DNA from: Limosilactobacillus sp. WILCCON 0051
GTDB lineage: Bacteria > Bacillota > Bacilli > Lactobacillales > Lactobacillaceae
Length of the DNA stretch: 64,000 bases
NCBI RefSeq assembly: GCF_039955095.1
Contig: NZ_CP154878.1
Location: 1,488,001-1,552,000 of the forward strand
Reading direction: 5' to 3'
Numbering within the stretch: position 1 is the first letter of the stretch; the number at the start of each line of letters is the position of its first letter. The position numbers and the translations under genes are program-made. Positions 5,608-21,147 of this stretch are shown one piece after another. The notes below the pieces were generated by a model. The model made no database searches and was not told where the DNA came from. It worked only from the letters and a program-made list of their open reading frames with translations.

Positions 5608-7860
5608 CTACTTCAGTTCCAGATCCTTACCAGCCAAGTCAATGGTCAGTGGTTCACCGGATACCAGTGATACGTGCGTGCCTTCCTTGTCAACCAGCAC
5701 CTTGATGACGCGGCCACGGAAGACCTGCGTGAATTGGTATGAATCCCACTTCTTAGGCAGGAATGGTGCGTAGTGCAGCTTGCCTTCACGAATCCGCATG
5801 CCAGCAAAGCCTTGCACGATATCCAGCCAGCTACCAGTCATCGAAGTAATGTGCAGACCATCGGAAGTGTCGTTGTTGTAGTTGTCCAGGTCAAGACGAG
5901 CAGAACGGTCGTACAGTTCAACGGCCTTGTCTTCGTAACCCAGGTCAGCGGCGATGATGGAATAGATCGATGGCGACAGACTTGATTCGTGAACCGTGTA
6001 TTGTTCGTAGAAGTCAAAGTTGTGCTTCTTTTCTTCTGGCGTAAAGTCATCGATGAAGTCCCAGATACCTTGGATAACGTCACCTTGCTTAACGTATGGC
6101 GAACGCAGGATCTTGTCCCATGACCAGTGTTGGTTGATTGGCAGCTGGTCGCTTGGAATGTCAGCAACCGGCTTCAGATCCTTATCCAAGAAGCCATCGT
6201 TTTCAGGGAAAATGTCACGTTCCTTGTCGTATGGCAGGTACATGTTGTCAACGATTGCCTGCCACTTGCGTTTTTCATTTTCAGTAACGTTGAGCTTGGC
6301 AGCTACGTCAGCGTCAACTTCCTTCAGCACTTGCAGCGTGTACTTCAGCGTCCATTGGCAAAGCAGGTTCGTGTACCAGTCGTTGTTGACGTTGTTGTCG
6401 TATTCGTCAGGACCAGTTACGGCATGCAGCATGTACTTGTTTTGACGTTGTGAGTAGTGAACCCGGTCAGCCCAGAAACGAGAAATTTCAGTCAGAACCT
6501 TGGCACCTTCATGCAGCACGTAGCTCTTGTCGCCCGTGTAGTTGGTGTAGTTGTAGATTGCGTAGGCAATGTCACCATTACGATGGATTTCTTCAAACGT
6601 GATTTCCCATTCGTTGTGGCATTCAATCCCGTTGAACGTAACCATTGGGAACAGGGCACCCTTCAAGCCTTGTTCTTGGGCGTTGACGTAAGCACCATCC
6701 AATTGGTCGTAACGGTACATCAGCAGGTTGCGGGAAATCTTAGGGTCGGCAACACCAAGGTAGACTGGCAGACAGTATGCTTCAGTATCCCAGTAAGTAG
6801 CACCGCCGTACTTTTCACCAGTAAACCCTTTAGGACTGATGTTCAGGCGTGAGTCGTTGCCGTAGTAAGTTGAGAAGAGTTGGAACAGGTTGAAACGAAT
6901 CCCTTGTTGAGCTTCGTCGTCACCATTGATTTCAACATCGGCTTTGTTCCAGCGTTCTGCCCAGCCGGCAACGTGGGGAGCCAGCAGATCGTCAAAGCTT
7001 TGACCATCCAGTTGACCAGCCAATTCATCCAGACGGGCAACCAGTGCTTCTTGCGTGTCAAAATCACGTGAAGTTGCTACCACGGAACGCTTTTCCAGTT
7101 CAACTTCTGCACCAGCAGCCAACGTGCCGGCAAAGTCGTTTTCAGCCGTCTTGGCAGTCGTGCCGTCGCCAACGTGTTCCAGCGTCGTCTTGGTAGTCGT
7201 CTTTACCCCAACCGTAAATTGAGGCGTGCCGAATGGGTTTGGCTTCGTCTTGGAAACCAGCAGTGCATGTTCGCCGGCTGCCTTTTGTTCCAGTACATCC
7301 CAGAACTGTTCGTCGTAGTTGGAGTCTTCGTTGTAGACGTCACCATTGATAACACTGGCAACTTCCAACTTGGCTTCAGCATCGCCCAGGTTCTTGACGT
7401 GCAGGCGCTGACCAACCAGTTCCTTTTGTGCTACGCTGACAAAACGTTCAAACGTAAAGTGCAGCTTGGCACCGCCAACTTCGGCCGTAAATTCACGGGT
7501 AAAGATCCCCTTCTTCAAGTCAAGGTCCAGCTTGAAATCAGTTGGTTCCTGCTTAGCCAGATCCAGCTGTTCGCCATTAACCTTGATCGTCAGTTGCAGG
7601 AAGTTGGTACCGTTGATCATCTTACCAAAGTACTTTGGATAGCCGATCTTCCACCAGCCAACCCGTGTCTTGTCTGGGAACCAAACACCACCGTAGTAGA
7701 CACCTTCCATCTTGTCGCCAGAGTAGCCTTCTTCAAAGAAACCACGCATCCCGAGGTTTTCGTTGGCCAGACTGGTCATTGATTCTTGCAGGCGCTTGTC
7801 TTCAGGAGCCCACTTGGTAGTTACGATATTCCAAGGAGCGACGTCAAAAGTTCGTTTCAT
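5608..7860 (-). CDS. mapA: Maltose phosphorylase, glycoside hydrolase family 65
   Basis: This 750-residue cytoplasmic enzyme phosphorolyses maltose to beta-glucose 1-phosphate and glucose without spending ATP. Family 65 signatures are clear: the WDTEAYCLPVYL segment, ECHNEWEITFEEIHRNGDIA with the general-acid Glu, and HAVTGPDEYDNNVNNDWYTN. The C-terminal beta-sandwich (about 670-750) follows the alpha/alpha barrel. Length is normal. It lies between the permease (57 bases upstream) and pgmB (12 bases downstream); with pgmB it feeds both glucose halves into hexose phosphate metabolism. The ribosome binding site AAAGGATAATATCTT precedes ATG 7858-7860. Confidence 0.96.
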   Translation of the reverse strand: MKRTFDVAPWNIVTTKWAPEDKRLQESMTSLANENLGMRGFFEEGYSGDKMEGVYYGGVWFPDKTRVGWWKIGYPKYFGKMINGTNFLQLTIKVNGEQLDLAKQEPTDFKLDLDLKKGIFTREFTAEVGGAKLHFTFERFVSVAQKELVGQRLHVKNLGDAEAKLEVASVINGDVYNEDSNYDEQFWDVLEQKAAGEHALLVSKTKPNPFGTPQFTVGVKTTTKTTLEHVGDGTTAKTAENDFAGTLAAGAEVELEKRSVVATSRDFDTQEALVARLDELAGQLDGQSFDDLLAPHVAGWAERWNKADVEINGDDEAQQGIRFNLFQLFSTYYGNDSRLNISPKGFTGEKYGGATYWDTEAYCLPVYLGVADPKISRNLLMYRYDQLDGAYVNAQEQGLKGALFPMVTFNGIECHNEWEITFEEIHRNGDIAYAIYNYTNYTGDKSYVLHEGAKVLTEISRFWADRVHYSQRQNKYMLHAVTGPDEYDNNVNNDWYTNLLCQWTLKYTLQVLKEVDADVAAKLNVTENEKRKWQAIVDNMYLPYDKERDIFPENDGFLDKDLKPVADIPSDQLPINQHWSWDKILRSPYVKQGDVIQGIWDFIDDFTPEEKKHNFDFYEQYTVHESSLSPSIYSIIAADLGYEDKAVELYDRSARLDLDNYNNDTSDGLHITSMTGSWLDIVQGFAGMRIREGKLHYAPFLPKKWDSYQFTQVFRGRVIKVLVDKEGTHVSLVSGEPLTIDLAGKDLELK

Positions 7861-7917
7861 AAGATATTATCCTTTCTCAATCTCAATTAATTTCTAAAGT
7901 TGCAAAATCAGTCAAAA

Positions 7918-9270
7918 CTAAGCAGCGAACGTTTCCTTGATGGCATTAACGGAGAATGCACCGATTGCCATAACGATCCCACCCAGCAGCAGCATGTGTG
8001 GTTGGGAGTTGCCCAACATTGGGTAAAGGAAGAAGCTGCAAAGTGAGGCAACAATCTGTGGCAGACAGATTGAGCAGTTAAACAGACCAAGGTAGGTACC
8101 CATGTGCTTACCAGACAATGCGTTGGTAACGATCGTCAGTGGGTAAGTGTTGATACCGGCCCAGCCAATCCCAACCAGGGCGTAAGACAGAATCAAAGCG
8201 TATTGGTTGGAGAAGAAGCAGACAGTTGCGAAACCAACCGCACCCAGCAGCAGTGAGCCCATGTAGCCAGCCTTGTGGTACTTGTTAGGCAGTTTAGCCA
8301 ATACGTAAGACCATACAACAGCGGCGATTGACTGAACGGCAGCCATCACACCGTACCAGTTACCAGCAGCCTGGTAAGCGGCAGAACTTGCGTTGGTCGT
8401 GTGCCATACGTTTTGAGCAATTGCACCAGCAGAGTAAGTCCACAGATATTGGAATGCAAACCAGCAGAAGAATTGTACCAAAGAAACCGTCCAGAAGGCT
8501 TTTGGAGCGTGCTTGAGCAGTTCAACCCAGTTACCGCCTTCCGTGTTGTCGGATTCCTTGATGCCATGGTACTTAGCGTAGGTTTCAGGGTCATATTCCT
8601 TAACGTGGGTCATCGTCAAAGCACTGGTACAAATCAGCAGAATAGCACCAATGTAGAAGGCCCAGCGAACCGAAGGAGGAACGACACCCTTAGGAGCCGT
8701 GTTCTGCAGACCAAACCAAGTCAGCAGGAATGGGAAGATGGCTGCCAGAACGGAACCGATGTTGTTCAGCAGACTTTGAATACCATAAGCATAACTCTTT
8801 TGATCATCGTTGACCATGTCACCAACCATCATCTTGAATGGCTGCATGGCAACATTAGAAGACAGGTCCAAGAAGGCAACGGTAATCGCACCGAACATCA
8901 ATGCCGCAAATGATCCATACCCGAAGCCAAGACTACCTGAGTTTGGCAAAAGCAGCATAACGATAACGGCAACAATCGTACCAAGCATCAGATATGGCAG
9001 CCGACGACCACCGAGCTTTGGTGCCCAGGTCCGGTCAGAGTAGTAACCAACGATCGGCTGCACGATCATACCCATCAATGGTGGCAAAATGAAGAACCAC
9101 CCAAGACTGTTAGGGTCGGCACCAATCGTTTGGAAGATCCGACTCATTTGAGAACTTTGTAAAGTAAAGGCCGTCTGTACGCCAAGAAAACCGAAGTTAA
9201 TCATCCAAATCGTTTTCTTGGACAAATATGGCAAGCCAGAGGTCTGTTTCTTTTGTTCTACTTCACTCAT
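7918..9270 (-). CDS. malT: Maltose permease, MFS/GPH (SLC45-like) sugar symporter
   Basis: This 450-residue membrane protein has about 12 predicted transmembrane helices with the layout of glycoside-pentoside-hexuronide type symporters. The loop motif GYYSDRTWAPKLGGRRLPY after helix 2 is typical of SLC45-like sucrose/maltose carriers. Being first in the malT-mapA-pgmB operon behind LacI-type operators makes maltose the likely substrate, imported unmodified as the phosphorylase requires. GGAG lies nine bases before ATG 9268-9270. The family is clear; substrate specificity is inferred from context. Confidence 0.88.
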   Translation of the reverse strand: MSEVEQKKQTSGLPYLSKKTIWMINFGFLGVQTAFTLQSSQMSRIFQTIGADPNSLGWFFILPPLMGMIVQPIVGYYSDRTWAPKLGGRRLPYLMLGTIVAVIVMLLLPNSGSLGFGYGSFAALMFGAITVAFLDLSSNVAMQPFKMMVGDMVNDDQKSYAYGIQSLLNNIGSVLAAIFPFLLTWFGLQNTAPKGVVPPSVRWAFYIGAILLICTSALTMTHVKEYDPETYAKYHGIKESDNTEGGNWVELLKHAPKAFWTVSLVQFFCWFAFQYLWTYSAGAIAQNVWHTTNASSAAYQAAGNWYGVMAAVQSIAAVVWSYVLAKLPNKYHKAGYMGSLLLGAVGFATVCFFSNQYALILSYALVGIGWAGINTYPLTIVTNALSGKHMGTYLGLFNCSICLPQIVASLCSFFLYPMLGNSQPHMLLLGGIVMAIGAFSVNAIKETFAA

Positions 9271-9322
9271 GACTTAAAACTCCTATCCTAAAAAATCCAC
9301 TCAATAAATAATTGCCAAGTCG

Positions 9323-9336
9323 TGTAAGCGCTTCAT
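9323..9336. promoter_or_regulatory. cre-like catabolite control site in the malT leader
   Basis: TGTAAGCGCTTCAT has the palindromic AAGCGCTT core of CcpA-binding sites. It lies just downstream of the malT -10 box, where bound CcpA would block transcription. The 3' flank is not a perfect consensus match. Confidence 0.55.
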
Positions 9337-9353
9337 GACTTTTAACACTTAAT

Positions 9354-9382
9354 AATATAACAAATGAATTCGTTTTCCGCAA
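9354..9382 (-). promoter_or_regulatory. malT-mapA-pgmB promoter
   Basis: On the minus strand: TTGCGG (9377-9382), 17 bases, TATATT (9354-9359). The -35 box overlaps the proximal LacI-type operator. Confidence 0.75.
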
Positions 9383-9414
9383 CCGTTTGCACACAATTTA
9401 ATGCAACCGATTGC
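9379..9414. promoter_or_regulatory. Pair of LacI-family (MalR) operators
   Basis: GCAACCGTTTGC (9379-9390) and GCAACCGATTGC (9403-9414) fit the LacI-family pattern GCAANCGNTTGC. They are 24 bases apart centre to centre. One overlaps the malT -35 box, so MalR bound there would repress the operon until maltose or a derivative is present. MalR being the ligand is inferred from adjacency. Confidence 0.75.
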
Positions 9415-9431
9415 GCAAAAATCTTAAAGAA

Positions 9432-9461
9432 AAGCCGGCCCATCAAGGAATGGACCGACTT
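9432..9461 (-). terminator. Terminator of malR
   Basis: AAGCCGGCCCAT pairs with ATGGACCGACTT (G-U pairs allowed). On the minus strand it is followed by TTTTCTTT and lies downstream of malR and upstream of the malT promoter. Confidence 0.6.
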
Positions 9462-9546
9462 AAAAATTTTTTATTTTTTTTGACGATTAATTCCGGCGCT
9501 TTGAAATCAATCATGTTTTTAACGTTCCGGTAGTTTGATTGACCGG

Positions 9547-10488
9547 CTAGTCAACTTTAAACGCAACAAAGGCATGCTGCAGATTAGGATTGAACAGCAG
9601 CTCAACCGCCTTTTTGCCCAGCTCATGCGGCTGCAGATCAACTTTTTCGACAGTTGGCAGCAGCATTCCCAGTAATTTGCTGTTGTTAAAGCAGATCACG
9701 GAAAGCCGATCCAGCAGGTGCATTTCCTGCAGCTCATGGTTCAGTTTCAAAAACAGCAGGTCATCGGCACATACCAGCCCATCGACCTTTGGATGCTGAG
9801 CAAAGAACTCCTTGGCCGATTGCGTGTCATAATACCAGTTCAGTTCTGGCAGATGCCGTTCTGCCAGACAGTTTTCGTAGCCCAGGCGCCGATCCTCCTC
9901 ATACTGCCAATGGTACGGCGAGCTGACATAGGCCAGATTAGTGACGTCATGATTGATCAGCAGCTGCTTGGTAGCCGCATAGCCTGCCGCGACGTTATCG
10001 TTGTCAACATAGCGATCGTTTTGGTGCCGTTCGGGATGACCGATTACCACAAAATTATAGCCATGCTCGCGCAGATAGGCCGCTACTGGATCATGTTCCA
10101 GCGTGTAGAACAATAGAAAATTATGAATTTTTGACTGCAGCGCCATTGATTTAACCGCACGCAGCAGTTTTTCCTGCGTGGGCGCCAATGCAACGACCAT
10201 TGAGTAGTCGCGTGATTCCAAAGCTGAAGCAATTCCCCGCATTAAGTCGATATGAAATGGGTTGGCTGGCGCTTCATCGGTGGTTACTGGAAAAACCAGT
10301 CCAACCATATTGGCCTCGCCCCGAGTTAGATTGCGGGCGGCATAGTTTGGATGATAGCCAATCTCAACGGCAATCTTCTTGATTTTTTCGCGCGTTGCCT
10401 CGCTGATTCGCGGGTTATCGTTTAAAGCTCTTGAAGCCGTAGAAACCGAGACTCCCGCGCGTGCCGCGATATCTTTAATTGTTGCCAT
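9547..10488 (-). CDS. malR: LacI-family maltose operon repressor
   Basis: The protein (313 residues from ATG 10486-10488) begins MATIKDIAARAGVSVSTASR, a textbook LacI helix-turn-helix, followed by the hinge helix (NYAARNLTRG) and a periplasmic-binding-protein-like sensor core that ends in the dimer-closing segment ELGKKAVELLF. It lies upstream of the maltose genes on the same strand, and matching operators lie between them. The start has no good ribosome binding site, although two tandem ATG codons lie 5 and 6 codons upstream; a good site precedes a short leader ORF further upstream (see 10522-10551). Confidence 0.9.
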   Translation of the reverse strand: MATIKDIAARAGVSVSTASRALNDNPRISEATREKIKKIAVEIGYHPNYAARNLTRGEANMVGLVFPVTTDEAPANPFHIDLMRGIASALESRDYSMVVALAPTQEKLLRAVKSMALQSKIHNFLLFYTLEHDPVAAYLREHGYNFVVIGHPERHQNDRYVDNDNVAAGYAATKQLLINHDVTNLAYVSSPYHWQYEEDRRLGYENCLAERHLPELNWYYDTQSAKEFFAQHPKVDGLVCADDLLFLKLNHELQEMHLLDRLSVICFNNSKLLGMLLPTVEKVDLQPHELGKKAVELLFNPNLQHAFVAFKVD

Positions 10489-10521
10489 GAACTGACAAAG
10501 CATCATGCCGATTCAAGTAGT

Positions 10522-12097: not shown

Positions 12098-12286
12098 TCA
12101 GTTTTTCTGGTGCTGCTTGAGCATCTTGAAAGTCAGCCCAATCGTAAGCAGCAGGCGCATCAACAATAGACCAGTCAAAATCAGATCACGCCGCTGTTTT
12201 TGACGAGCCGTCTTGATCGTGTGGCCGCATTTTGCACAGATTTTTTCGTGAGCCTTAAGCGGAGTTTTACAGTGTGGACATTTCAT
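12098..12286 (-). CDS. Small zinc-ribbon membrane protein
   Basis: This 62-residue protein starts with MKCPHCKTPLKAHEKICAKC: two CxxC knuckles that should bind one zinc ion. It continues with a basic stretch and a single hydrophobic helix (LILTGLLLMRLLLTIGL). This is the zinc-ribbon plus one-helix layout common in small Gram-positive membrane proteins of unknown role. I chose ATG 12284-12286, with AAAGGAC about ten bases before; the upstream GTG lies on top of that site. Confidence 0.75.
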   Translation of the reverse strand: MKCPHCKTPLKAHEKICAKCGHTIKTARQKQRRDLILTGLLLMRLLLTIGLTFKMLKQHQKN

Positions 12287-12443
12287 TGACAACACGTCCT
12301 TTCTAGTTTAGGTGTCTTTATTTTACGCCGATTCAACCTTGCTGAGTGTTCTTTTCGATAAATTTCAAAGCTTGGTAAAACATTATTAAAACAGACTTTT
12401 TAGGCTCTTTTTGATTTTTTATTCAGAAATTTTCGAAAAAGGC

Positions 12444-12472
12444 TTGCACTTAGTAAACCGTTATACTATTAT
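12444..12472 (+). promoter_or_regulatory. Strong promoter before an ORF-less region
   Basis: TTGCAC (12444-12449), a 17-base spacer and TATTAT (12467-12472). AT-rich A and T tracts just upstream (12410-12440) could act as an UP element. Transcription should start near the GG at 12479-12480. Confidence 0.75.
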
Positions 12473-12478
12473 ATTTAT

Positions 12479-12948
12479 GGGTCGTAAGGAAAGTGTTTTC
12501 AATCCTGCTTTTCTTTCATAACTTGTTTTATCGTGAAACCGTTCGTGCAGGCAGTCGACGATAGCCATCCCCTAACTACGCCAAGTTTACTGATGACTGT
12601 CACCGTCAATCAATCGATCTGTCGCCAACGTTTGACCGACCCTTCCTTCGACCGTTGAAGTACGCCAACTTTAACGGTCAGATGTTCATTTAACCTCAAG
12701 GCGATCCTTCGTCTTTCCTCAAAATCGTGAAGCTGTTGGTACTGGTATGCCAATCCCCAGTACCGGGCTCTCAATCCCTTTAAATCCACTTTAAGGCTTC
12801 ACGTCTGATCATCCTTGTTTGGCAGGCTCATCTCTTATGACTGACTCTTGTTCACTCTAATCATTAAAAATTTAATCCACATTACATCCATGAGCCTGCA
12901 GACAACTAAAAAAACGTCATCGAACGCTAAATTCGGTGACGTTTTTTT
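12479..12948 (+). ncRNA. Predicted large structured non-coding RNA (about 470 nt)
   Basis: No usable ORF exists here, yet the region has its own promoter and an intrinsic terminator. Between them lie several stable helices. ACCGTTGAAGT (12651-12661) pairs with ACTTTAACGGT (12668-12678), 11 bp with one G-U. GGTACTGG (12738-12745) pairs with CCAGTACC (12757-12764). CGTGAAGC (12726-12733) pairs with GCTTCACG (12796-12803), enclosing that hairpin and a second one (12777-12796) as a three-way junction. GCAGGCTCAT (12822-12831) pairs with ATGAGCCTGC (12890-12899). The motif GCCAA near TTT recurs at 12580, 12624 and 12664. It does not show the RNase P core or a tmRNA tag and 3' end. The minus strand has no matching promoter or terminator order. 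Family unknown; large phage-type RNAs such as ROOL or GOLLD are possible comparisons. Confidence 0.65.
12911..12948. terminator. Bidirectional terminator shared by the ncRNA and the fumarate-reductase-like gene
   Basis: ACGTCATCGAA (12914-12924) pairs with TTCGGTGACGT (12932-12942), with T7 to the right and an A tract (T on the minus strand) to the left. Confidence 0.85.
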
Positions 12949-12949
12949 A

Positions 12950-14776
12950 TTACTTTGATTTGACTTTGCTCAGTGCATCAGCAACTGCTTCACTCACCGC
13001 GCGGCTGGTCGTCGTTGCTCCCGAGATCGCGTCAACGGCTGGCGTATTGGCACTGATCATGTTTTTGGCAAGCTGATCAAAAGCCGCCTGACCAATCTCT
13101 TCGTTTTCATGGTTTTCTAAAATCTCAACTTGACGCAGCTTTTGATTTTGATAGGTCACGCGGACTACGATGCGGCCACCCATGCCATCATCCGAAACGC
13201 CCAGATACTGATCCGGCCCTACCATATAATGCTGAGCCGACAGATCCAGCAGATCATTAATATGCACCGTAACCGCATCATGCAGCCGCGCGACGTTGAC
13301 GGCATCCTTTTTTGGCTTGGCCGCATTTTCTCCCGCAATCTTGCCAAAAATCAGACATTCCGCCAGGTTGCCGCCACTCTGATAATAGTTAGCCGCAATT
13401 CCGCCTAATTCACCGGCGCTGTATAAATGAGGAATCGGCTGATCATCAACGTTTAAGACGCGTGCTTTTTCGTCATGCTGCGGTCCGCCCTGCGTATTCA
13501 AAACGTTGCTGGCCAACTCAATTGCATAGTATGGCCCTGCCCCAAACTTACGCATGGTATCCGTATCGCGACCGGTCTGATAGTCACGGCCAATCTCTTT
13601 AAAATGATTGAAGTCAGTAACCGTCTGTGTCAGGCTGATTGCTGGCACGTGCAGCTGTTTAGCCAGTTCTGGCAATGAATCCGCGCTGATCAGCTTTTGC
13701 ATAAACTTCGGATAAGGCAGGCGCCGGTCATCTTTTTCCTGCTGAGCAAAGACCTCGTACTGTGCCTGATCAAATACCAGATAAGGATGTTTTTGATAGT
13801 GCGGCAGAACCCAATGACCATGTGAATACAGATGACCATGACGCGCGGGCTGATTTTCCGCAAAAAAACGCGTGCCATCATCGCCAATCACAAAAATACT
13901 GCCATGATTCAACTGCGACCAGCTTTGAATTACTCGGCCCCGATGCTGCGTTCCCTCTTCAGCAAACGTCAGCCCAGCCAACGTGCCATAGCTTTCGTAG
14001 TTTCCCATGTGCCAAAGCTTAGCCTGAACTTCTTGCGCCATTTTAATGCCATCGCCACGGTTAAACAGCGTTCCCATTGGCATTAGCGCAGGCTTTTGCA
14101 GATAGTTTTGAATCATTTCCCGATTGTTTTCAAAACCGCCCGTTGCCAATACCAAACCATTCTTAACGGCAATCTGATAATCCTTACCGCGCCGACGCAG
14201 CTGAACGCCCTTTACCACACCGGTTCGTTCATCCTGGTACAGATGCCGAGCCCGCGTGTTGAGCCAGACATCGATCCGGTCCGCGCGCTCAACCACGTTT
14301 TGCCGCAGTATCTTCCATAGCGCTGCATCCTTATCGCGTCGGTGAACCAGGGCAATGTCGACTGACTCGCTGTCGGCCAGTTCTGGATACTCAGCCAGCG
14401 AGTGCTTGGGAACGACTGGATCGCCTAGGCGGATGTCGTCTTTCCAGCTGACTGCCTTAACGCCCAGGTACTTTTCAAAATAGTCTGGCATATTGACCAG
14501 TCCGCGCAGATATGTCTGCATCAGCTTAGCCGGTACCATATAATCGTCATTGAGCTGCTGATAATACTTGGTCAGCTGACCGATCCCTTTGCCCATTGCA
14601 ACGTGCTGTGAGGCATAGCGCGTATTGCCGCCCTCTCTTCCCAGAGGTGCCGTGTCAACCAATAAAACGTATGCTCCTGCGTCAGCCGCAAATCGAGCCG
14701 CCGTAGCACCAGCACCGCCAAAGCCCACGACAACCACGTCATATTGGGCATTCCATTGAACATCATTGGCTTGCAT
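12950..14776 (-). CDS. FAD/FMN-dependent fumarate-reductase-like oxidoreductase
   Basis: This 608-residue flavoprotein starts with the FAD-binding dinucleotide fold VVVGFGGAGATAARFAADAG and ends the FAD domain with GELGGIAANYYQSGGN, as in flavocytochrome c type fumarate and urocanate reductases. The C-terminal 90 residues are an FMN_bind domain with the covalent attachment motif SGATTTS (about 586-592), the target of ApbE flavin transferase. Soluble FMN_bind/FAD fusions of lactic acid bacteria reduce fumarate or similar enoates as an electron sink. There is no signal peptide, so it should be cytoplasmic. GAAGGAA precedes ATG 14774-14776. Substrate is inferred only from the family; no ApbE gene is in the window. 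Confidence 0.85.
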   Translation of the reverse strand: MQANDVQWNAQYDVVVVGFGGAGATAARFAADAGAYVLLVDTAPLGREGGNTRYASQHVAMGKGIGQLTKYYQQLNDDYMVPAKLMQTYLRGLVNMPDYFEKYLGVKAVSWKDDIRLGDPVVPKHSLAEYPELADSESVDIALVHRRDKDAALWKILRQNVVERADRIDVWLNTRARHLYQDERTGVVKGVQLRRRGKDYQIAVKNGLVLATGGFENNREMIQNYLQKPALMPMGTLFNRGDGIKMAQEVQAKLWHMGNYESYGTLAGLTFAEEGTQHRGRVIQSWSQLNHGSIFVIGDDGTRFFAENQPARHGHLYSHGHWVLPHYQKHPYLVFDQAQYEVFAQQEKDDRRLPYPKFMQKLISADSLPELAKQLHVPAISLTQTVTDFNHFKEIGRDYQTGRDTDTMRKFGAGPYYAIELASNVLNTQGGPQHDEKARVLNVDDQPIPHLYSAGELGGIAANYYQSGGNLAECLIFGKIAGENAAKPKKDAVNVARLHDAVTVHINDLLDLSAQHYMVGPDQYLGVSDDGMGGRIVVRVTYQNQKLRQVEILENHENEEIGQAAFDQLAKNMISANTPAVDAISGATTTSRAVSEAVADALSKVKSK

Positions 14777-18978: not shown

Positions 18979-21147
18979 ATGATAAAAAGGGGAGTATTAT
19001 TCTGCGTTTCCCTTGCATTTTCTTTAATGTTGCTGGTCAGTTTTGCTATGACCGGCAGCCATGTCTTTGCTAGTGAACTGTCCACAACATCGAGCAGCAG
19101 TTCACAATCAATTGTTAATAGCGCTTCTGTCAATAATCAATCAAAACAAGATCAAAACAGCACTACTAATGAACATACCGCGGTGTCGGCCGTCAGCACC
19201 AGTCATCAGCCGCAAGACGTCAGTGACCGCATCACTAATCTGACCGTTGTCGAACGTGATTCCAAAAAGTCGCAGTCAATCTATAACGATGGCGCTTTTG
19301 TCACGGTCAGCGGAACTTTTAGCGATGCCCGCGGTAAGATTCAAGGCGGCGACACGATTCACGTTAACTGGCCCAACTGTGGTCAAGCCTACATCAACAG
19401 TTTTGCAGGCGGCAAGGATCTTTACGTTAATGGAACGATGGTTGGCCACTACACCGTCGATCGCACTGGCGCAACCTTGACATTTAATGATCAAATCAAT
19501 GACCTGCAAAACGTTAGCGGCAGTTTTTCATTTGACGTTGAGGTTCGCAACACTGCCGAACAGAACCAAACAATCCGAATCACAGCTGGTAGTACTGCTG
19601 CATACATTCCAGTCAAAGGAATTACCAAAGGCAGCAGTGAACAGCCAAGCGGTAAAGGATGGCGTGGTGAAAAAGTTGGGATGATGACTAATCGAGGCAA
19701 TCATAATGCATTGGCCTGGGGGATCTATCTGAACAGCAATGCGGCCGCGCTTGGCAGTGACATTGTTTGTTCAGATACCATTCAAGGTGGCCAAGAGTTC
19801 GATCCTGATTCACCATATAATCGAATTACCGTTAATGGACAATCACTGTCTTTTAAAGAATTCAAAGCCGCCTACCCTAATTCTTCAATCGAAATCAACG
19901 GTAAGACTCTTACTTTCCGCTTCAATAAAGACGAATTTTCCGGTAAAACGATTCTGGTTGGCTACGGAACGAAAATCACCGATAATGACTTAGCGGTCTT
20001 CAACAACACGGCCACGGTCACCTATCAATTAAAAGAAGAAAGTCAGCCTACTACCGTTGACTATTCCAAAGCAGTGCAAAACATTTCATTTGATGCCAAC
20101 GTTACGGGAACCAAGCCTGGCGAAATGAAGATCATCAACAAGTACACTGATGAGGAAGGTAAAATTAAGACCTTGCCTGACGCAACTTTTGAAATCATCA
20201 AACCAGATGGCGAATCAATGACCTACACGACCGATGAAAATGGTGTGGTTGACATCAAGGACCTGCCAGCCGGAAAGTACACGATTAAACAGATCACAGT
20301 TCCTGACTGGATCGATTTCTCGAAAGCCAAAGACCAAACTTGGACGATTGAGATTTCGGACAATGAAAACGGTACGCCGTTGATTGTCTACAATGATGTT
20401 AAAAAGTCGATTCCTTGGACGCCATTGACGCCGGCCAAAGACGTTAAACCGTGGGCACCATTGACGCCGGCTAAGGAAACTAAGCCTTGGACACCGTTGA
20501 CGCCGGCTAAGGAAACTAAGCCTTGGACACCGTTGACGCCGGCTAAAGACGTTAAACCTTGGGCACCTCTCACGCCAGCTAAAGACGTTAAGCCTTGGGC
20601 ACCTCTCACGCCAGCTAAAGACGTTAAGCCTTGGGCACCTCTCACGCCGTCTAAAGACGTTAAGCCTTGGGCACCATTGACCCCGGCTAAAGACGTTAAG
20701 CCTTGGACACCGTTGACGCCGGCTAAGGAAACTAAGCCTTGGGCACCATTGACCCCGGCTAAGGAAACTAAGCCTTGGGCACCGTTGACGCCGGCTAAAG
20801 ACGTTAAGCCTTGGGCACCATTGACGCCGGCCAAAGACGTTAAGCCTTGGGCACCATTGACCCCGGCTGCAATTATTAAACCTGCTGATAAGCATGCTGA
20901 TTCTGAAGCAACGGCAACACCTTCAACTTCAGCTGCTCATGTCAACAAGTCAAATGCAGTGGCAGTCAATAATTACTCATCACAGCCAGTTACCAAGGCA
21001 GCTGCCGATAATGACGTAATCGCTCAAGCCCAAAAGCTGCTGCCAAAGACTGGTAACCAAACTTCCAACGCAATCTGCTGGCTGGGAGTCATGCTTTGTG
21101 TCAGCGTGGCCGGCTGGGTTGCAGTATCTAAAAAGAAAAACAATTAA
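18979..21147 (+). CDS. LPKTG cell-wall adhesin with Cna-like domains and 12-residue Pro/Trp repeats
   Basis: 722 residues, wall-anchored. Layout: signal peptide (1-32, cleaved near HVFA-SE); Ser/Thr/Gln linker (33-80); two immunoglobulin-like adhesion domains (about 80-365), the first containing NWPNCGQAYI and the second GWRGEKVGMMTNRGNHNALA, in the style of Cna/SdrC collagen or fibrinogen binders; a SpaA/prealbumin-like stalk domain (about 370-475, DLPAGKYTIKQ); thirteen 12-residue repeats PWAPLTPAKDVK (479-634); a linker; and sorting signal LPKTG, helix and KKKNN. Sortase A should link it to peptidoglycan. The repeats probably form a rigid wall-spanning stalk. ATG 18979 follows AAGGGGG at a long spacing, but shorter starts would break the signal peptide. 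Ligand unknown. Confidence 0.9.
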   Translation: MIKRGVLFCVSLAFSLMLLVSFAMTGSHVFASELSTTSSSSSQSIVNSASVNNQSKQDQNSTTNEHTAVSAVSTSHQPQDVSDRITNLTVVERDSKKSQSIYNDGAFVTVSGTFSDARGKIQGGDTIHVNWPNCGQAYINSFAGGKDLYVNGTMVGHYTVDRTGATLTFNDQINDLQNVSGSFSFDVEVRNTAEQNQTIRITAGSTAAYIPVKGITKGSSEQPSGKGWRGEKVGMMTNRGNHNALAWGIYLNSNAAALGSDIVCSDTIQGGQEFDPDSPYNRITVNGQSLSFKEFKAAYPNSSIEINGKTLTFRFNKDEFSGKTILVGYGTKITDNDLAVFNNTATVTYQLKEESQPTTVDYSKAVQNISFDANVTGTKPGEMKIINKYTDEEGKIKTLPDATFEIIKPDGESMTYTTDENGVVDIKDLPAGKYTIKQITVPDWIDFSKAKDQTWTIEISDNENGTPLIVYNDVKKSIPWTPLTPAKDVKPWAPLTPAKETKPWTPLTPAKETKPWTPLTPAKDVKPWAPLTPAKDVKPWAPLTPAKDVKPWAPLTPSKDVKPWAPLTPAKDVKPWTPLTPAKETKPWAPLTPAKETKPWAPLTPAKDVKPWAPLTPAKDVKPWAPLTPAAIIKPADKHADSEATATPSTSAAHVNKSNAVAVNNYSSQPVTKAAADNDVIAQAQKLLPKTGNQTSNAICWLGVMLCVSVAGWVAVSKKKNN
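20413..20880 (+). repeat. Thirteen 36-bp tandem repeats in the adhesin stalk
   Basis: Each unit encodes PW(A/T)PLTPAK(DV/ET)K. Variants alternate between DVK and ETK, and between A and T after PW. Synonymous codon differences (for example ACGCCGGCC and ACCCCGGCT) mark older and newer copies. The last unit is altered to AAIIK. Confidence 0.95.

Follow-up and report, generated by a model that had tools for sequence, protein, structure and literature searches.

Bacteria seldom have long structured RNAs encoded as free-standing genes, and RNAIII, ROOL and OLE have proved to be either major regulators or RNA assemblies of an unusual sort. In sponge RNAs of the CsrB/CsrC type, the short motif GGA is repeated in several hairpin loops. 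RNAIII of Staphylococcus aureus has its own promoter and terminator and is about 500 nt long, a length similar to that of the RNA described here, and we take ROOL and a 520-nt long noncoding RNA (lncRNA) of L. salivarius to be of the same kind as each other. In the available excerpt of PMC2837412, RNAIII is described as consisting of several hairpins with C-rich unpaired loops that bind ribosome-binding sites, and the present RNA resembles it in its exposed C-rich strands. To ROOL and the L. salivarius lncRNA, as excerpts of PMC5643018 and PMC12286853 present them, it is alike in being long, free-standing, structured and found in few lactobacilli.

Here we describe the RNA and its locus in a 64,000-nt stretch of DNA from Limosilactobacillus sp. 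WILCCON 0051 (the window). Judged from sequence comparison, the plus strand at positions 12479-12949 very probably carries a free-standing gene for a noncoding RNA, belonging to the L. mucosae group. This agrees with the initial annotation, which had proposed a structured RNA of about 470 nt, free-standing and read from the plus strand; the conservation of the promoter, covariation and a terminator speak for it. The locus sits on a 2.36-Mb contig, in a gap between a divergent zinc-ribbon gene and a convergent flavoprotein gene (Table 1) in which, as had been claimed, the window contains no open reading frame of at least 60 codons. The zinc-ribbon protein carries its ribbon at the N-terminus together with a hydrophobic stretch, and its Pfam scores fall just below the curated cut-offs. 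Nearby, genes for a GH65 family enzyme, an MFS transporter and a LacI-family regulator are clustered at 5608-10506 (minus strand), and two palindromes that we take to be LacI-like, GCAATCGGTTGC and GCAAACGGTTGC, are read from the sequence upstream of the transporter gene. About 10 kb around the RNA locus share 95% identity with L. mucosae DSM 13345, and the loci of all three genomes that contain a homologue are collinear. The zinc-ribbon protein is present in the same three of 50 genus genomes as the RNA (plus one weak match), and the flavoprotein in these three and in one more at 52% (E ≤ 1e-60). Since the RNA and the zinc ribbon are confined to three genomes, and the flavoprotein nearly so, the RNA appears to belong to a locus peculiar to the L. 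mucosae species group, within what was searched.

Table 1. Features of the RNA gene and its surroundings (positions in the window).
Feature	Position	Strand	Basis or description
Divergent small-protein gene, zinc ribbon	12098-12295	-	occurs in the three species that have the RNA
Invariant 66-nt run (promoter and RNA 5' end)	12436-12501	+	identical in 3/3 homologues
Promoter TTGCAC-17-TATTAT	12444-12472 (TTGCAC 12444-12449, TATTAT 12467-12472)	+	sequence
Imperfect palindrome TAGTAAACCGTTATACTA, possible operator	12451-12468		in promoter; invariant in three homologues
Proposed noncoding RNA, about 470 nt	12479-12949	+	fold, homologue alignment, consensus structure, covariation
Domain 1	12479-12642	+	closed by 12479-12484 with 12637-12642; loop ACGCCA 12578-12583; model R1
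Domain 2 hairpin, hexaloop ACGCCA 12662-12667	12650-12679	+	two pairs changed on both sides; model R2 with domain 3
Domain 3 multiloop	12681-12813	+	hairpins 12698-12715 and 12726-12803; model R2 with domain 2
Domain 3 inner hairpin, loop with GCCAAUCC	12738-12764	+	within 12726-12803; three pairs changed on both sides
Domain 4	12815-12905	+	a long helix encloses a large G-poor loop, in which two weak hairpins are predicted
Predicted open C/U-rich stretches	UUCCUUC 12643-12649; UUUAACCUC 12689-12697; UCCUCAAAAU 12716-12725; CUCUCAAU 12768-12775; AUUACAUCC 12881-12889	+
Intrinsic terminator	12907-12949	+	18-bp stem and T run; lies directly next to where the convergent flavoprotein gene ends
Convergent FAD/FMN flavoprotein gene (FAD_binding_2 and FMN_bind)	12950-14776	-

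The only full-length homologues found are those of three genomes in a single genus, namely the present genome, L. mucosae DSM 13345 (98%) and Lactobacillus sp. MRS-253-APC-2B (85%). With blastn, five of 95 relatives give any match at E ≤ 1e-3, three of them at full length, and 14 of 396 family genomes do so at E ≤ 0.01, three at full length and the other 11 over short stretches, several at the terminator. Covariance models built on domain 1 (R1) and on domains 2 and 3 (R2) find 3/50 genus genomes (E ≤ 1) and 4/396 family genomes (E ≤ 0.1) for R1, and 3/50 and 6/396 for R2, where all homologue counts include this genome and the genus sample overlaps with the family sample, itself drawn from a larger group. 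The three extra family matches of R2 are taken as chance, because they are weak (21-25 bits), two of them lack most of the model, and they seem, as read from the sequence, to lie in or beside protein-coding genes; the one extra family match of R1 scores 19 bits. Because the model searches start from a sequence-based first look and apply strict filters, a strongly diverged homologue may escape detection. Searches of 50,697 records of phages and 72,556 of plasmids gave no match to the RNA. An exact 19-mer occurs in six stretches of genome contigs, of which two are the known homologues and four align over 19-24 nt at best; in viral contigs the 19-mer has a single match, with an alignment of just 25 nt, and three other exact patterns give none.

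A possible antisense relation to a surface-protein gene was rejected. In L. mucosae DSM 13345, a 28-nt stretch matches the complement of 12807-12834 at 93%, but the same blastn finds none in the present genome, so the match is probably due to chance. This stretch sits in one repeat midway in a gene (L039 2-4741) for a large repetitive surface protein with an LPxTG-type end. The window encodes a surface protein at 18979-21147 (plus strand), in which PW(T/A)PLTPAK-like repeats are arrayed many times in tandem and an LPKTG motif lies close to the end.

The promoter named in the initial annotation is present in the sequence, inside the 66-nt run that is invariant in the three homologues; in contrast to this run, the three 50-nt bins preceding 12450 are 55-74% identical to the MRS-253-APC-2B homologue. 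By hand count it agrees with the sigma-70 consensus at 8 of 12 positions, and a promoter scan with a cut-off of nine matching positions does not list it; taken alone, the promoter sequence would not stand out. We infer that the RNA is transcribed, with a start at about 12479. The terminator, likewise part of the earlier claim, was located by a scan, and its sequence could work in either direction. The palindrome in the promoter has what we take to be a LacI-family-like core and may be an operator, which is only a lead because the genome holds no second copy at up to three mismatches of 19 (a backwards control pattern gives 3 and 2 hits). The best NCBIfam match of the LacI-family gene nearby (9547-10506) is RbsR, at 101.5 bits against a cut-off of 382, and an assumed RbsR consensus was not found in the papers searched.

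The plus-strand RNA has a predicted folding energy of -138.3 kcal/mol (z -6.99), which none of 100 shuffles equals. Five helices had been read from the sequence, of which 12651-12678, 12738-12764, 12822-12899 and the closing helix of 12726-12803 are present in the consensus structure; the hairpin 12777-12796 is missing from it, and its CCUU/AAGG pairing becomes CCUU/UAGG in the 85% homologue. A suggested long-range pairing of 12557-12561 with 12709-12713 is likewise not supported: each partner falls within a predicted local helix, and since neither differs among the homologues there is no covariation. The inner part of domain 1 refolds in the MRS-253-APC-2B homologue, and in the large loop of domain 4 a 41-nt stretch (12839-12879) is invariant in the three homologues.

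The initial annotation had made the structured RNA depend on covariation among homologues, and this was found. In the three-sequence alignment, 13 of the 138 consensus pairs are changed on both sides and still paired, against a mean of 4.5 in shuffles (0/500 reach 13), although two of the sequences are near-identical, leaving effectively only two independent ones; when the consensus partners are slid, at most three pairs are double-changed. Because the consensus structure was derived from the same sequences, each sequence was folded alone and the homologue then scored on that fold. The window fold scored on MRS-253-APC-2B gives 11 double changes and 18 broken pairs (null means 2.5 and 31), and the reverse, the MRS-253-APC-2B fold scored on the window, gives 10 of each (null means 2.1 and 22.5); in both directions, the scores lie outside all 2000 shuffles. 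Domain 1 has double changes in its stem and its inner helices; the others occur in the domain 2 hairpin and in the inner hairpin 12738-12764 with its closing helix. Since the MRS-253-APC-2B sequence makes its own 9-bp hairpin at the place of the first hairpin, the three pairs broken there appear to reflect a shift in the alignment. The closing helix of domain 4, though conserved, tells little because it hardly varies (13 of its 16 pairs never do). The comparison indicates that the RNA fold is under selection.

What the fold leaves open is poor in G and rich in C: predicted unpaired bases of the plus strand are 7-9% G and 28-32% C, and eleven unpaired stretches of at least 5 nt are invariant. 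Conservation as such does not clearly differ between unpaired (151/182 positions conserved) and paired (235/291) parts. We propose that the helices of the RNA would keep several G-poor, C/U-rich stretches open, that these stretches would base-pair with the purine-rich translation starts of mRNAs, and that the pairing would alter the translation or decay of the target mRNAs, as with Staphylococcus aureus RNAIII. Action in trans is what we infer, and pairing as its mechanism is put forward tentatively, at clearly less than an even chance.

Pairing was examined for eleven hand-chosen segments against 378 gene starts, which a simple script had called from the window and a 400-kb genome sample. Seven of the eleven segments favour starts over coding sequence beyond the shuffle average, and four, including that at 12833, fall short. 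For the segments at 12643, 12689, 12713 and 12768, the start preference is 1.1 to 2.1 standard deviations above shuffles (ten shuffles), and the other three of the seven exceed shuffles by less than 0.5 standard deviation. The start preference is small and largely a consequence of C/U content. The unpaired parts hold no excess of anti-Shine-Dalgarno words, either in the window (4-mers 9 versus 10.6 expected, 5-mers 2 versus 2.5) or in the MRS-253-APC-2B homologue (4-mers 12 versus 11.0, 5-mers 3 versus 2.6). The RNA differs from RNAIII in this, in giving no Rfam match to it, and in that its mRNA targets are candidates only.

One such candidate target is the mRNA of the nearby MFS transporter (7918-9270, minus strand; start 9270), which is the best of the 378 starts for the segment 12833-12892, at -30.0 kcal/mol. 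Eight of 300 shuffled segments pair as well with this start, and 2/60 find an equal partner among the 378 starts, which is not significant given the eleven segments tested. The start also pairs strongly with shuffled segments (mean -20.8 kcal/mol). The paired stretch of the transporter is identical in the other two genomes and lies inside a generally conserved region; since the start is sticky and the region conserved in general, this identity tells little.

The main rival to trans-acting pairing is a scaffold or sponge, in which the apical loops with ACGCCA(A) would form a repeated site for a protein, following CsrB-like logic, or for loop-loop RNA contacts. The likeness to CsrB/CsrC-type RNAs lies in one short motif found in several hairpin loops; the motif here is ACGCCA, and the protein partner is putative. 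Two ACGCCA hexaloops (12578-12583 and 12662-12667) are identical and invariant, a third apical loop contains GCCAAUCC, and the pairs beneath these three loops change while the loops are kept. The initial annotation had noted GCCAA three times, twice in ACGCCAA loops; the loops at 12578 and 12662 are borne out, but there are four copies rather than three (12580, 12624, 12664 and 12749). None of 1000 shuffles of the window sequence reaches four copies of GCCAA, and in the 85% homologue ACGCCA occurs four times against 0.10 expected (0/1000 shuffles). The repeat is nevertheless less striking than it looks, because the motif was chosen after the fact and some 5-mer usually reaches four copies in shuffles. 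CAATC, AATCC and TTTAA are commoner here than GCCAA, the copy at 12624 lies outside the apical loops, and the binding partner is putative only. On balance, we consider a scaffold or sponge rather unlikely.

More improbable is a large ornate RNA of the ROOL, GOLLD or OLE kind, folding or assembling on its own without regulatory pairing. Its length, its multi-domain fold and its being a free-standing gene in a lactobacillus would suit such an RNA. The initial annotation had allowed for an outlier of this class; none of ROOL, GOLLD, OLE or raiA, whose models we take to be part of the Rfam library, is among the Rfam matches. At gathering thresholds, none of 4227 families matches the RNA and the window yields only a tRNA, which upholds the earlier view that the RNA is absent from Rfam; at E up to 10, the 12 matches in 12296-12960 include none that is sensible and no large ornate RNA. 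Neither phage nor plasmid records contain the RNA. According to the excerpt of PMC5643018, L. salivarius has a 520-nt, species-restricted and very abundant RNA; it is encoded on a megaplasmid, in contrast to the contig of 2.36 Mb that carries the RNA described here, and ROOL itself obtains no Rfam score here. In literature on small RNAs or RNA-seq of L. mucosae and on structured or regulatory RNAs of Lactobacillus, the RNA is not named among the matches listed, and the main text of PMC11109978 contains no lactobacillus term. The RNA appears to be a new, unclassified family of a known general kind, belonging to none of the families tested.

Transcription of the opposite strand was also weighed; the RNA would then be a structured leader to the zinc-ribbon gene, whose start is at 12295 or 12286. 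The minus strand folds well too (z -4.86; 0/100 shuffles as good), so that folding energy alone cannot pick the strand. It keeps 7 and 7 double changes, above the null means of 2.0 and 1.8, and its unpaired bases are A/G-rich, as is typical of many structured RNAs. The plus strand, however, keeps more double changes (11 and 10) and has the higher conservation index (0.77 versus 0.67). Single mismatches within Watson-Crick helices, counted over three sequences of which two are near-identical, are G-U rather than A-C by 8 to 3 in the plus folds and by 2 to 5 in the minus folds. The substitution strand test is neutral (G-U versus A-C 14 versus 12 in plus folds and 12 versus 13 in minus folds, with the two directions added up). 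The plus promoter is invariant, and the terminator would halt read-through at the 5' side of a minus-strand leader; no minus promoter is listed in 12296-13500, but the scan omitted the plus promoter as well. Favoured by its invariant promoter, higher conservation index, larger number of double changes and excess of G-U over A-C mismatches, the plus strand is in all likelihood the working strand, and a minus-strand leader is quite improbable.

A coding or dual-function RNA is less probable again. Among the ATG, GTG and TTG frames of at least 8 codons listed, only a 14-codon frame starting at ATG 12477 is preserved in start, reading frame and length across the three sequences. This ATG lies at the putative transcription start and has no ribosome-binding site, codons 9-11 change from NPA to RFC, and both ends of the frame fall in DNA that is invariant anyway, so that its translation is very improbable.

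The standard RNAs have the least claim. As stated before, the hallmarks of RNase P and tmRNA are lacking here: the one RNase P type B match of the genome (RF00011, 307 bits) lies elsewhere (G000:C1:1461947-1462322), and ARAGORN gives only a tRNA-Pro, and Rfam no tmRNA, in the window. Rfam gives no SRP RNA match in the window and no match to 6S (RF00013, a 187-position model) anywhere in the genome, and a 6S survey (PMC8414754), in the excerpt available, eliminated the candidate from L. mucosae in its first round. The same excerpt places 6S next to rarA in almost every species of lactic acid bacteria, and the neighbours of the present RNA are the zinc-ribbon and flavoprotein genes in place of rarA/uspA. 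A divergent copy of RNase P, tmRNA, 6S or SRP RNA, for which the missing 6S would leave room, is therefore extremely improbable, as 6S is also far shorter and the R1 and R2 searches find the RNA absent from 47 of the 50 genus genomes.

The best overall explanation is an RNA gene whose product would act as a trans-acting pairing regulator, a combination that we hold provisionally and at somewhat under even likelihood. A bolder reading, which we regard as unlikely, is that the RNA would represent, as its first known member, a new class of large RNAs in lactobacilli, born or acquired in one species group, with the ACGCCA loops and the 41-nt loop stretch binding a protein or RNA partner and the regulator of the promoter palindrome as its switch. 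A chromosomal RNA that is present in few lactobacilli and has its own covariation would provide a small, clean test case for the origin of large regulatory RNAs, and one that could be tested directly in L. mucosae.
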